From positions 186,001 through 250,000 of the forward strand of contig NZ_JBDOIO010000005.1 of NCBI RefSeq assembly GCF_039831995.1: a stretch of 64,000 nt of DNA, written 5' to 3'. This document shows, piece by piece, positions 27,993-57,279 of this stretch. Every line of letters begins with the position of its first letter. The first letter of the stretch is position 1. The position numbers were made by a program, and so were the translations under genes. The DNA comes from Paenibacillus pabuli (lineage in GTDB: Bacteria; Bacillota; Bacilli; Paenibacillales; Paenibacillaceae). The notes below the pieces were generated by a model. The model saw nothing but the letters and a program-made list of their open reading frames with translations. It ran no database searches and was not told the DNA's origin.

Positions 27993-28099
27993 TTGAACAT
28001 TCGACCCCCAATTATAATACCCATACGAAATTATAAATCCCCTGATCTCTTTTTTATATATAAAGAAATATTGTTAGCCATATTTAATGAAGCATATTT

Positions 28100-28249
28100 G
28101 TTACACGATAACGAAGAGTGCAAGGAAAACCTGGAGAAGTGTAACGTTTGCCTTTATCACCGGATTTCTCCCTATCTAAAGGGAATAAAAGAAATCTGGA
28201 GATAACAGCAATCGGAAGGTTGTCTTGCAATCGTAGTGCCAAGTGTAAC
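28100..28249 (+). repeat. Dispersed hairpin element, copy A
   Basis: About 150 nt between tagA and tagO, bounded by GTTACAC (28100-28106) and its inverse GTGTAAC (28243-28249). The core is a 15-bp hairpin: TTATCACCGGATTTC (28154-28168) with GAAATCTGGAGATAA (28191-28205). It has one mismatch, one G-U pair and an inner CCCT/AGGG stem. It is preceded by TTTGCC and followed by AACAGCAATCGGAAG. It matches copy B closely and copies C and D in the same plan. Confidence 0.8.
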
Positions 28250-28369
28250 GGTCTGATTCATTCTTTGCGAACACACATGTAATCCGGAATGAATTATACG
28301 CTGATCACACCCGAAATGCCAACCTCAATTTTTAGCAAAAACGTTCATTTTTCTCGTAATAGCCTGTAT

Positions 28370-34362: not shown

Positions 34363-34794
34363 TCAGCTTGGGTCAGACAGGGCAAACATGATTTCGCCTT
34401 CAGCGACGACTTTGTCTTCCACACGGGCTGTCGCTTTGCCTTTACCGATCGAACCCTTCAGACGTGTAATTTCCACTTCCAGCATCAACGTATCTCCGGG
34501 CACGACTTGTCCACGGAATCGGAAATTATCCAGTCCCGCCAAAAAGCCGATTTTGCCTTTATTGCTCTCCACGTTAAGAATGGCTGCTGCGCCTACTTGA
34601 GCCAGTGCTTCGGTGATCAACACCCCTGGCATTACCGGATATTCCGGAAAATGACCGATGAAGAACGGTTCGTTAATGGTTACATTCTTCAAACCAACGG
34701 CGCGTTTGCCATCCTCCATTTCTACAATCTTGTCCACCAGCAGAAACGGGGGACGGTGCGGGATAATGGCTTGAATCTGTTTGCTATCGAGCAC
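34363..34794 (-). CDS. fabZ: 3-hydroxyacyl-[acyl-carrier-protein] dehydratase FabZ
   Basis: 143 residues from a GTG at 34792-34794, supported by AAAGGAG 8 nt upstream and by the usual family length; the frame is open to 34818. It has the N-terminal [12 protein letters not shown], active-site His in [13 protein letters not shown] and Glu in [11 protein letters not shown]. It dehydrates 3-hydroxyacyl-ACP in fatty-acid elongation. In Bacillus the gene (ywpB) lies near flhO/flhP and mbl, as here. No terminator was seen directly after it; pgcA follows after a 113-nt gap. Confidence 0.96.
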
Positions 34795-35217
34795 AGTGTA
34801 ATCTCCTTTCAGGGTCACTTATATGTGAATCATTCCCAACATAATTGCTTGCGAGCGCGGTGGCCGTTACGGTTACGGATCGTTCTTCCGATCGCTGTTG
34901 TCTCCAAATTTTCTCGATTCATTTTTTTGAAGGTAAAAATTTGGAGACAAAGGCGAACGCTTCGCTTCTACAGAATCGATTCCGTCCCCTCCACTACGTC
35001 GCTAAAACACAACCATTATGATAATGAACCTCATATAAATGTGGTTATGTTTATTTGGTATGAAAAACGCATTTTCGGTTAACACTACTAATATCCTTCA
35101 TGACTGCAGTAGTGAAGGTTGAGATAAGGGGTCTCTCTTCGCGATGACAATTGTCTTTCGCAGGGGAGGCCTCTTTTGACGTCAAACGTCATCCATCATT
35201 ATACTGTTTTCAACGCG
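34795..35217. other. Intergenic region upstream of fabZ holding a repeat copy
   Basis: No gene. It contains hairpin element copy D (34884-34990) and, at 35000-35200, AT-rich sequence with a short inverted pair around 35128-35175 (GAGGGGTCTC-like and AGGCCTC-like arms). The fabZ promoter must lie here, but I could not choose one. Confidence 0.4.
34884..34990 (-). repeat. Dispersed hairpin element, copy D
   Basis: Same plan as copies A-C, on the minus strand. The box CTGTAGAAGCG-AAGCGTTCGCC (34952-34973) precedes a perfect 15-bp hairpin, TTGTCTCCAAATTTT (34936-34950 read on minus) with AAAATTTGGAGACAA (34898-34912). AACAGCGATCGGAAG follows. The arms differ from the other copies at several positions, and each change is compensated. 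Confidence 0.75.
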
Positions 35218-39034: not shown

Positions 39035-39769
39035 TTATTTTTCCGGAAGATATCCTTGTGGGTTAACCGGTTGACCGTCTTCGTACACTTCGAAGTGCAG
39101 GTGGTTGCCGAGCGTTTTTTCCAATTCATTTACGCCAGCGGATGCAATTGCATCTCCCTGTTTCACTTCGTCATCCTGTTTCACTTTGACGTCAGACAGG
39201 CTTTGGTATACGGTTTTGAGGTTATCACTGTGCGTGATTTCCACAACTTGACCTGTCAGCGGATTTTGCTCAACCCGTGTAACTTTACCCCCGAGTGCTG
39301 CTTTTACTTCAAACGATTTGTTATCTCCGCGTGCCAGGTCTACGCCTGTGTTTGGAATAAACGTATCGTTGTACTGCACCATTGCGGCTTCATGTTCTTC
39401 CGTAGAGCCTTCGTTCTCATAGAACGGTTTAACAACAGAAATTTCCGACGGACTGGCTACTGGCCATGCAAAATTCTCCGACTTGGCGACAACTTCCACA
39501 CTTTCTTCTCCACCAACTGCTGTTTCTTCTGTACCCGATGCTCCCGTCTCTACGACTCCACTAGCAGGATCCGAGTTCAGCGTTTTCTCGCCTGTACCCT
39601 GATAGACCCACACTAATGTTAGTATAATGCCTGCTGCTGCGATGTAGGCTGCCGGGAAGACCCAACGTTTGGACATTGCTCTTTTCCATGAAGATGGTTG
39701 GCTGGCCGGTACTCCTTGAGTTGTTTTAGGAGTTTCTTCTTGGCCCGTTTTTTTGTTTTGTTCATTCAT
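39035..39769 (-). CDS. spoIIQ: Stage II sporulation protein SpoIIQ (LytM-domain, probably non-catalytic)
   Basis: 244 residues from the ATG at 39769 (GAGGTGAT upstream; the frame is open to 39805). One membrane helix (about 37-55, WVFPAAYIAAAGIILTLVWV) and an outer M23/LytM domain. The zinc-site position that is normally H-x-G-x-D reads NTGVDLAR, so the first His is missing; the second motif HLHFEVYEDG is intact. B. subtilis SpoIIQ is also a degenerate LytM protein: it serves as the forespore half of the SpoIIQ-SpoIIIAH channel. Its neighbours spoIIID and spoIID fit this. Confidence 0.95.
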   Translation of the reverse strand: MNEQNKKTGQEETPKTTQGVPASQPSSWKRAMSKRWVFPAAYIAAAGIILTLVWVYQGTGEKTLNSDPASGVVETGASGTEETAVGGEESVEVVAKSENFAWPVASPSEISVVKPFYENEGSTEEHEAAMVQYNDTFIPNTGVDLARGDNKSFEVKAALGGKVTRVEQNPLTGQVVEITHSDNLKTVYQSLSDVKVKQDDEVKQGDAIASAGVNELEKTLGNHLHFEVYEDGQPVNPQGYLPEK

Positions 39770-39816: not shown

Positions 39817-39911
39817 ACGCGCGACTCTAATTTTTTTCACGGAGGTTTCAGAGAATGCTATATATGTGGGAATGAGCGGTTAATACGTGCGCCGCTTCGG
39901 GGCCAGAAAAC

Positions 39912-40013
39912 CTTTCGACCGGCTGTTATCCCCGGATTTCCTGATTATATTCTCCCAAGGGAGAAATCCGATGATAAAGGCGGACGCTACGCTTCTACAG
40001 GTCTTTTCTGTCC
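39912..40013 (-). repeat. Dispersed hairpin element, copy C
   Basis: Minus-strand copy. The box CCTGTAGAAGCGTAGCGTCC-GCC precedes a hairpin of TTATCATCGGATTTC (39963-39977 read on minus) with GAAATCCGGGGATAA (39926-39940). Its inner stem is TCTCCC-TT-GGGAGA. AACAGCCGGTCGAAAGG follows. Confidence 0.75.
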
Positions 40014-40284
40014 CCTGCGCTCCCCGTACGCTCTCACTTTCCGTATATATAGCAGAATCTCGAAAGCTCCGGAATGGTTGGTTGGTAGAGAAGCCCGGAT
40101 TGGCTGTAATGGCCTATCCTTCTATGAAGCGAGTTTATCGGCTGAAAGCGACGCGACATGAAATGGGATGTGATTAGATAAACCAATTTATTGCGCTCTA
40201 AGCGTTAAAGTGAGATGAGAGTTTGGCGATGCCGCGGCACTAATGACTGTTCCATCTAACCTTGAGATTAGATAATGAAATATT

Positions 40285-54847: not shown

Positions 54848-56095
54848 CTAGTATTTCAAATCTGTGTACAGCGGGAATTGGTCTGTAAGTGCAGTTACTT
54901 CTGCACGAGCTTCATCCAGTTTCGCTGTATCTTTTGGATTTTTCAATGTTTTTGCAATGATCTTACCAATGGCAACCATAGCCTCTTCGTTCATACCGCG
55001 GGAAGTGGCTGCAGGAGTACCAATACGAATACCGCTCGTTACAAACGGGCTCGTCGGATCAAATGGAATTGCATTTTTGTTCACGGTAATACCGATGGAA
55101 TCGAGGACATGCTCAGCTTCCTTACCCGTGATGTTCACGCTGCGTGTGTCGATCAGCATCAAGTGGTTGTCTGTTCCGCCGGATACAATGTTCAATCCTT
55201 CGGCAATCAGTGTTTCAGCCAAAACCTGAGCGTTCTTCACTACGTTTTGTGCGTAAGTTTTGAATGAAGGCTGCAGGGCTTCACCCAGTGCTACCGCTTT
55301 GGAAGCGATAACGTGCATCAAAGGTCCACCTTGGGAGCCTGGGAATACCGCTTTATCAATCGCAGCTGCCCAGGATTTGCGGCACAGGATCATACCGCCA
55401 CGAGGTCCGCGCAGCGTTTTGTGTGTTGTCGTTGTAACAAAATGGGCATGTGGAACCGGGCTCGGATGCAATCCGGCAGCAACCAGTCCTGCAATGTGGG
55501 CCATGTCTACCATAAACAATGCACCTACGTCGTTGGCGATGGAAGCCAATTTTTCAAAATCAATCGTACGCGGATATGCACTTGCACCTGCAACGATCAG
55601 ACGAGGACGGTGCTTGAACGCTGCTTTGCGCACTTCATCGTAATCGATCAGGAACGTATCTTCCTGCACGCCATATGCCACGAAGTTGTACAGCAAACCG
55701 GATGCATTCACCGGGCTGCCGTGAGTCAGGTGTCCACCATGAGCAAGGTTCATGCCCAGTACCGTGTCGCCAGGTTTCAGCGCTGCAAGGTATACTGCCA
55801 TATTCGCTTGTGCTCCGGAGTGAGGCTGTACGTTTACATGTTCAGCTCCGAACAGTTCCTTCGCGCGGTCACGTGCGATATCTTCCACGACATCCACGTG
55901 CTCGCAACCACCATAATAACGTTTGCCCGGGTATCCTTCTGCGTACTTGTTCGTCAGTACAGAACCAAGCGCCTCAATTACCGCTTCACTTACGATGTTC
56001 TCGGATGCAATCAGCTCAATGTTGTTCTGTTGACGTTTCAACTCCAAATTCATCGCTTCAAGTACTGCAGGGTCATTCTTACGCAATTGTTCCAT
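54848..56095 (-). CDS. glyA: Serine hydroxymethyltransferase
   Basis: 415 residues, full length. The PLP-lysine motif [16 protein letters not shown] and N-terminal [15 protein letters not shown] are clear. It converts serine and tetrahydrofolate to glycine and methylene-THF. GGGAGGAATTTAAAC precedes the ATG. Upstream lies repeat copy B, then ywlG, as in Bacillus. Confidence 0.98.
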
Positions 56096-56143
56096 GTTTA
56101 AATTCCTCCCAGTATATTAGTGAAGTTATAAAGCAAAATTGAT

Positions 56144-56291
56144 GTTTACACGAAAACGGAGAGTGCAGGACCAATCTAAAGAAACGAAGTGGTCGCCTTT
56201 ATCACCGGATTCCCCCTTAAAAAGGGATTCAAAAAATCTGGGGATAACAGCGATCGGAAGATGGTTCTGCAATCGGAGTTAGGAGTGTAAC
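56144..56291 (+). repeat. Dispersed hairpin element, copy B
   Basis: About 148 nt between ywlG and glyA, bounded by GTTTACAC (56144-56151) and GTGTAAC (56285-56291). The core hairpin is TTATCACCGGATT (56199-56211) with AATCTGGGGATAA (56235-56247) and an inner CCCTT-AAA-AAGGG stem. It is preceded by GAAACGAAGTGGTCGCC and followed by AACAGCGATCGGAAG. Confidence 0.82.
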
Positions 56292-56323
56292 CTTTCAGTT
56301 TCGCTTTATAGTAGGTTGAAGAT

Positions 56324-56956: not shown

Positions 56957-57279
56957 GGCTGCCCGCTCTTGTCTTCATGCACGGCATTTCAGGTACTATT
57001 ATAGCGAATAATCAGATGAAAGACGAAAAAAAGAGCAGTCTGCGGGTATCGCAGAATTGCTCTTTTGCCCAGGCGACCGGCCGTTTGTTCCGGTGCTCCA
57101 TTGTGGTTGTGCCCACTTCGTCGCCAGTTACACCGGATCCCTGTTTTCCCCTTCATCATAAAACAACCCACGCTTAAAATCAACGGGTAATTTACATTAC
57201 ATGTCCGTTTTTGCACTAGAAAAGTAGTTTGGAGATTCAATTGTCACTGTCCATTTACATTGCCCTGTACAATCCCGGT
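56957..57279. other. Intergenic region where Bacillus has rpiB
   Basis: About 320 nt between ywlG and ywlE with no gene; it holds the terminator at 57026-57066. An 83-codon minus frame runs through that terminator and is not credible. In B. subtilis rpiB (ywlF) sits here; nothing of it was recognised. Confidence 0.5.
57026..57066 (-). terminator. Intrinsic terminator downstream of ywlE
   Basis: Interrupted stem AAAAGAGCA + TCTGCG paired with CGCAGA + TGCTCTTTT, then a T tract on the minus strand. It is 214 nt past the ywlE stop. Confidence 0.85.

Follow-up and report, generated by a model that had tools for sequence, protein, structure and literature searches.

REP and REPIN sequences are extragenic palindromes in many copies, a likeness shared by the Paenibacillus element described here, which is nevertheless longer and more structured. 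Other described systems that resemble it include (i) CREE/NEMIS of Neisseria, (ii) ERIC of enterobacteria, and (iii) bcr1-bcr3 of the Bacillus cereus group. The accessible parts of the CREE/NEMIS literature describe small palindromic, high-copy intergenic repeats with terminal inverted repeats (TIRs) and a terminal TA, often located 5' of genes, all points of likeness, and a hairpin that is bound or cut by RNase III in the mRNA (PMC2649163, PMC2229807); for the Paenibacillus element, long helices are predicted. According to the same portions of text, CREE mostly measures 104-108 or 153-157 bp and displays promoters, a target duplication and, in its long form, an IHF site, whereas the Paenibacillus element shows a covarying three-way junction, an order-wide distribution and, at one site, inversion in place. 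ERIC, as far as the available part of PMC2229807 describes it, is likewise a small palindromic repeat that is cotranscribed and whose orientation matters for mRNA stability, an effect ascribed there to an RNase E site, whereas the effect of the Paenibacillus element on mRNA is putative, the two being likened by description. Finally, bcr1-bcr3 are MITE-like and lie in UTRs and between operon genes, the presence of bcr3 going with a longer mRNA half-life and with housekeeping genes in the accessible sections of the source (PMC3446304); compared by description, they are repeats of the B. cereus group, whereas the covariance model built here, R1, matches the family of its own host alone (299 class genomes, 1e-5).

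The window, that is, the whole stretch of 64,000 nucleotides of Paenibacillus pabuli analysed here, had been proposed to contain four copies, A to D, of a dispersed hairpin element. These are present at the places given and share a common plan, as read in the sequence and as scored by R1 (112-132 bits); the R1 search of the window recovers each of them at E values between 1.5e-29 and 4.5e-35, which are not independent because copies A-D are all among the 57 training rows. The 17-mer ATAACAGCGATCGGAAG occurs three times in the window at up to three mismatches, compared to 0.14 expected, and the box of copy C is divergent (AACAGCCGGTCGAAAG). The extents first assigned to B, C and D were too short (Table 1), the limits given here being read by eye since automatic arm limits are noisy. 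The palindrome of copy C extends past its TATATA termini, with TTCCGGAGCTTTCGAGATTCTG facing CATTCTCTGAAACCTCCGTGAA. A box does precede the hairpin, as the original prediction had it; nevertheless, it actually consists of the mini-hairpin and a single helix strand, the partner of which lies in AACAGCGATCGGAAG. All four copies are intergenic with respect to the genes predicted by a simple ORF caller; copy C overlaps a 69-aa ORF, probably spurious, by 58 nt, and copy A is flanked by two minus-strand genes. The gene facing copy B is presumably glyA. The view that the copies are not terminator-like also stands: no T tract was seen by eye behind any of the four, and merely three of the 69 full copies in the genome lie between converging genes, so that a terminator was rejected.

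Table 1. Coordinates of the four element copies, of parts of copy B and of neighbouring genes in the window
Feature	Position	Strand	Description
Copy A	28086..28262	+	arms AATGAA..TTCATT; R1 core 28103-28251; outer limits by eye
Copy D	34819..35038	-	termini TTATATGA..CATATAA; R1 core 34851-35002; upstream of fabZ (start codon 34794)
Copy C	39836..40074	-	approximate palindrome limits, by eye; R1 core 39879-40028; upstream of spoIIQ-like gene
Copy B	56127..56310	+	termini TATAAAGC..GCTTTATA; R1 core 56148-56293; 5' of glyA
Copy B, 5' junction part	56176..56196	+	P1 end (CT), bulge, GA of kink-turn-like motif, mini-hairpin, helix 5' strand
Copy B, 3' junction part (AACAGCGATCGGAAG)	56246..56260	+	internal-loop strand, helix 3' strand GCGATC
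fabZ, downstream of copy D	34366..34794	-	NF000582, TIGR01750
spoIIQ-like gene, downstream of copy C	39038..39769	-	NF053738, 246.9 bits, just below the cut-off of 250
glyA, 5' side facing copy B	54849..56096	-	DNA matches only

The 15-mer box AACAGCGATCGGAAG, used as query against a GTDB genome collection, was found in at least 119 stretches, and cmsearch of the first 100 such loci gave 95 matches at 1e-7, with no match at this threshold in those of the 100 loci that belong to other genera and hold the 15-mer. Alignment A2 comprises 53 standard copies from these loci and the four window copies, and yielded R1, with 151 positions and 32 pairs. Because the loci were found through the exact 15-mer, the invariance of this box in A2 reflects how they were selected, and the conservation figures given below accordingly come from the 69 own copies and from 32 distant matches. 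The own genome (G000, 6.95 Mb) contains 74 R1 matches at E ≤ 0.001, including (i) 69 full copies (at least 56.9 bits), (ii) four partial antisense shadows of copies already in this list, and (iii) one weak match (29.5 bits); an additional shortened copy of 124 bp lies around C3:3735887. The element is about 180-240 bp long. Several loci (L033:1232-1746, L081:7220-7864, L010, L027, L028) hold two or three elements in tandem, at a spacing of ~182-331 bp. All 60 sampled genomes of the genus match, as do 156 of 198 genomes of the order, representing 29 of its 43 genera, and 27 of 299 genomes of the class at 1e-5, every one of the latter in the own family; per-genome copy numbers that reach 51 in the genus search or 15 in the order search are lower bounds. 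The expectation of many intergenic copies here and in other Paenibacillus genomes was thus borne out, the covariance search returning many further copies rather than none, and the family is larger than first proposed.

The predicted RNA fold is overall a long palindrome. Outermost are arms of variable sequence, inside which an internal loop (5'-GNA/5'-GNA), enclosed by C-G and G-C pairs, leads to helix P1; the pairs at this loop covary in the 69 own copies (C-G in 52 and U-A in 10; adjacent to it, A-U in 48 and G-C in 15). Past P1 lies a three-way junction, CU-GNA-GA-A facing G-GA-AG, which we take to be the pattern of a kink turn, together with a mini-hairpin, GC-GNA-GC, in which the paired bases vary in concert (G-C 48, A-U 6, G-U 2; C-G 56 and U-A 1 of 57). 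The helix GNUCGC/GCGAUC, with U.U, C.U or G.U at its second position, is followed by an internal loop and a long stem with a variable loop. In copy B, the 5' junction part comprises the bulge AAA (GNA in most copies), the mini-hairpin AC-GAA-GT and the helix strand GNTCGC, and the 3' part also holds the GA of the kink-turn-like motif and the start of the P1 3' strand. RNAalifold alternatively pairs the final C of the mini-hairpin with the G following GCGAUC; the mini-hairpin is preferred because its pairs covary. In some copies an extra hairpin module lies near AAAGCTTTCTGAAAGAAAGCT (19 of 125 matches, by a rough pattern), and an accessory hairpin module near AAAGCTTTCTGAAAGAAAGCTACTTCGGAAGCATA is present or absent at varying junction points (L002, L016, L020, L026, L031 and others), including among glyA orthologs (L264, L266, L268).

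Compensatory changes, anticipated by the original prediction for a real family, are seen in every alignment, the double-change cells exceeding those of shuffled controls. In A2 they number 232, compared to 76.1 ± 7.5 after shuffling and at most 96 after sliding; in two alignments fitted to R1, which leans towards the structure, they reach 265 versus 64.8 ± 7.6 (the 69 own copies) and 302 versus 83.5 ± 8.4 shuffled and at most 68 slid (the 32 distant, non-training matches, drawn from the genus, family and order in 19 genomes of low copy number). In the distant set, 94.5% of cells are paired and 29 of 32 pairs covary. These counts show one conserved fold kept by compensatory changes. The outer arms, which lie outside R1, fit their own partner better on average than they fit the arms of other copies, with a mean of 18.96 against a permutation maximum of 15.04 (45 nt), a mean reached by none of 2000 permutations. 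At the kink-turn-like positions the own copies display G.A in 61 and A.G in 52 of 69, and at the GNA/GNA loop G.A in 64 and A.G in 63; the distant set preserves the bulge G (28/31) and A (29/32), the GA (27/30 and 27/32) and, on the facing strand, the A (31/32), the facing G being present in merely 17/31, with U in 10/31. A three-nucleotide bulge followed by G.A and A.G between two helices is the likeness to the Kt-7 type of kink turn, from which the element differs in that its motif lies in a three-way junction; the motif is kink-turn-like as judged by sequence pattern.

With respect to genes called by the simple ORF caller, 58 of the 69 own copies are followed by a gene of the same orientation, the flanks being ++ in 48, -+ in 10, -- in 8 and +- in 3 (48 versus 8, p 5e-8). 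Among the 48 ++ cases, the R1 end is followed by the start codon after 25-85 nt in 39, compared to 23.1 ± 3.1 expected from random placement in the same gaps, and the median distance is 54.5 to the downstream start and 62.5 to the upstream gene (Wilcoxon p 0.27). Ten of the 11 antisense copies end within 34 nt of the stop codon of the facing gene or slightly overlap it, some of these ORFs being short. For copies elsewhere (n = 81, after leaving out 14 of 95 without flanking sequence or neighbour ORFs), the counts are ++ 37, -+ 14, -- 16 and +- 14 (++ versus --, p 0.005), a sense bias far below that of the own genome. Several copies occur within single operons, for example around purC, purS, purM and purH, and before argB and argD. 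The purine operon (G000:C3:3492000-3505600, L186) carries five elements in 13.6 kb, and the purC-purS gap holds two elements of opposite orientation, one of which runs a few bases into the end of purC. A scan of 58 downstream genes matched 40 to an NCBIfam model at 1e-25, with functions as diverse as purine and arginine metabolism, DNA repair, translation, transport and sporulation. The sole copy in G060 (L248), a genome from a distant family within the order, precedes a gene that reads like tpiA; in genus g21 (L236-L238), a single copy is apparently located 5' of the same ORF, in sense, in three species, as read by eye.

The elements are old residents at stable orthologous sites. Across 380 kb compared between the own genome and its relative G035, 13 own sites were counted, of which 11 are shared, ten in the same orientation and one inverted; two further own copies, at C5:500-520 kb, fall beyond the G035 stretch compared and do not enter this count. 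Three of 14 G035 sites are absent from the own genome, and at least two of the five absences in total retain remnant arms, resembling partial deletions. Individual sites were surveyed in 30 loci each, own genome included, those of glyA and fabZ being the best 30 loci of 60 and 40 genomes searched. Site A is filled in 18 loci, antisense to both neighbours in 18/18 (L423 ends too near to tell), site C in 17 (one orientation in 17/17) and site D in 23 (23/23), amounting to a constant orientation in 58/58 occupied loci. A site 3' of glyA is filled in 25 loci (L268-L292), always in the direction of glyA, and empty in the own genome and its four nearest relatives among those loci (L263-L267). In seven G000/G035 ortholog pairs, 10 of 150 core positions, 32 of 428 in pairs and 35 of 150 in the terminal loop have changed; the terminal loop thus changed more than either the core or the stems (p 7e-5 and 1e-6), which shows selection after insertion. 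Paired changes in the same set comprise seven double kept, seven single kept and 11 broken. Four of the 11 pairs were excluded, because some other copy matched at least as well as the ortholog or fell short of it by at most 0.004 identity; a count of 28 double-kept changes over all 11 was discarded as inflated by replaced occupants, falling to seven once these were dropped.

Close relatives show the element inverted in place at one site and replaced at a second. The copy B site, 5' of glyA, surveyed with a single genome for each species, is filled in 24 of 30 loci and empty in six, the occupant being antisense to glyA in 14 of the 24 (own genome included) and sense in 10, so that both orientations are found at a single locus, as in an invertible segment. 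Between G000 and G035, whose glyA genes are 95% identical, the inversion is clean, with breaks inside the terminal repeat TTATAAAGC..GCTTTATA. The element tree requires at least two inversions and the species tree eight orientation changes; only two flips are claimed, because haplotypes seem to have been exchanged between species. At the fabZ site (copy D), the occupant in G035 belongs to another subtype, sharing 60% identity with the own copy, within near-identical flanks that break at TTATATGA..CATATAA; a second copy inserting at the same place would also explain this case. The occupants of three further shared sites are about equally close to another copy and to the ortholog, which suggests replacement there, although fast divergence could explain it too. 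The four other sites surveyed (A, C, D and 3' of glyA) show no inversion.

Small size, 69 copies and TIR-like ends are the features of a MITE. Fourteen facing pairs of such ends, with up to three mismatches and 124-236 bp apart, were found in 20 stretches, the termini lying near CTATATAAGTTGAACTA; in many other copies the arms are decayed or different. No consistent target duplication was observed across the 14 TIR pairs and none was established in the five G000/G035 differences, the empty glyA site being compatible with a 2-bp GT duplication or with none. No facing TATATAAGTTGAAC pair (up to one mismatch) 0.3-9 kb apart, as an autonomous parent sharing the TIRs would have, was seen in G000 or G041, in a list read by eye. 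Copy B, the sole query, had no match in plasmid and phage collections, and such an origin was set aside, divergent copies there being possible.

Searches for known families point to an apparently undescribed element. In Rfam, the window and 18 loci give no match to the element, the only matches, both outside elements, being a ZMP/ZTP riboswitch (RF01750, 56 bits) at window positions 57060-57141 (-) and an OLE RNA (RF01071, 336 bits, truncated by the end of the locus) at L250:2644-3144, ~1 kb from the element match in G173; with E values up to 10, copy B yields one weak caiA match (18.5 bits, gathering 55.5) overlapping the left arm. The literature searched, which includes few subscription papers, names no such element; an older description is possible. 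A word search of the main text of the discovery papers PMC11109978 and PMC6429828 finds no mention of Paenibacillus, and the word 'repeat' is absent from the accessible main text of the P. riograndensis transcriptome (PMC5670726). The original impression of an unnamed hairpin family, like no repeat known by name, therefore holds against Rfam and the literature searched; what it had not seen are the three-way junction with its kink-turn-like motif, the covariation of the outer arms, the nearness to gene starts, and the inversion and replacement at fixed sites.

The explanation we tentatively prefer, at somewhat less than an even chance, is that of an old MITE-like element that is transcribed along with its neighbour genes and on which selection acts at the RNA level, perhaps for the processing or stability of mRNA. 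A palindromic MITE-like family of ~180-240 bp, residing mainly in gene gaps of Paenibacillales, would be cotranscribed with neighbouring genes; the RNA would act on its own transcript as an intercistronic or 5' leader structure and steer the processing or stability of the downstream message, and recombination at the terminal inverted repeats may flip and swap the interior. We infer that this role in the mRNA is the likeliest one, proposed because CREE, ERIC/NEMIS and bcr repeats in mRNAs affect or accompany RNase III cutting or stability in the accessible parts of that literature. Against it count the stable antisense orientation at site A and the weaker sense bias elsewhere, the downstream distance, which is not clearly smaller than the upstream one, the four of 69 own copies that overlap a predicted ORF of more than 100 aa, the downstream genes without common function, and the outer arms, for which the own partner ranks best of 69 in just 16 copies (45 nt). 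Against the explanation as a whole count the facts that no transposase or recombinase was identified for the family, and that inversion was observed at just a single site, as was clear replacement. An unlikely elaboration holds that fixed intergenic 'sockets' throughout the genome, delimited by short TIRs, are places where a recombination activity flips or exchanges structured RNA cassettes, switching a leader off by inversion or changing its subtype.

High copy number, TIR-like termini, tandem arrays, unrelated downstream genes, empty glyA sites and mixed orientations in other genomes would all suit a selfish MITE-like element, the fold of which, as RNA or single-stranded DNA, serves its own mobilisation in gaps that merely tolerate insertions. 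This is a possible account, if a doubtful one: the constraint in place and the fixed sites and orientations (17-25 loci each) exceed a purely selfish need, and two close genomes differ at few sites. The conserved junction, the kink-turn-like motif, the sense bias and the start-codon distance in the own genome could instead belong to a single-ligand riboswitch or a protein-binding leader controlling a regulon, which is very improbable given the functionally diverse targets, the window copies without a terminator T tract and the several copies per operon; the single-ligand form was rejected for the functional incoherence of the downstream genes. Just as improbable is a site that acts purely as DNA, either as a cruciform or by binding protein, with no role for RNA; palindromes and stable antisense copies (site A) agree with it, but the biased orientation of the own copies with respect to genes does not, nor do the RNA-type motifs, since kink turns and sheared G.A pairs are motifs of RNA. 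Arm-to-arm correction is known in quasipalindromes, and the double-kept changes found beside single-kept and broken ones would fit pairing maintained by template switching or gene conversion between the arms without selection; nevertheless, such correction would also erase the unpaired nucleotides and asymmetric loops, both kept across families, and we give it the least credence.

A large, apparently undescribed structured RNA family, with dozens of copies per genome adjoining core genes (pur, arg, eno, fabZ, efp and ligA), is added to a well-sequenced order. Its covariation is strong enough for an Rfam entry, and annotation by Rfam would miss the family. The single-copy loci of genus g21 are a promising place to seek the original function. 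Filled, inverted, replaced and empty states of the same site are found in close relatives, and because of these differing states the old question of whether small repeats are passive or act as mRNA elements becomes testable.
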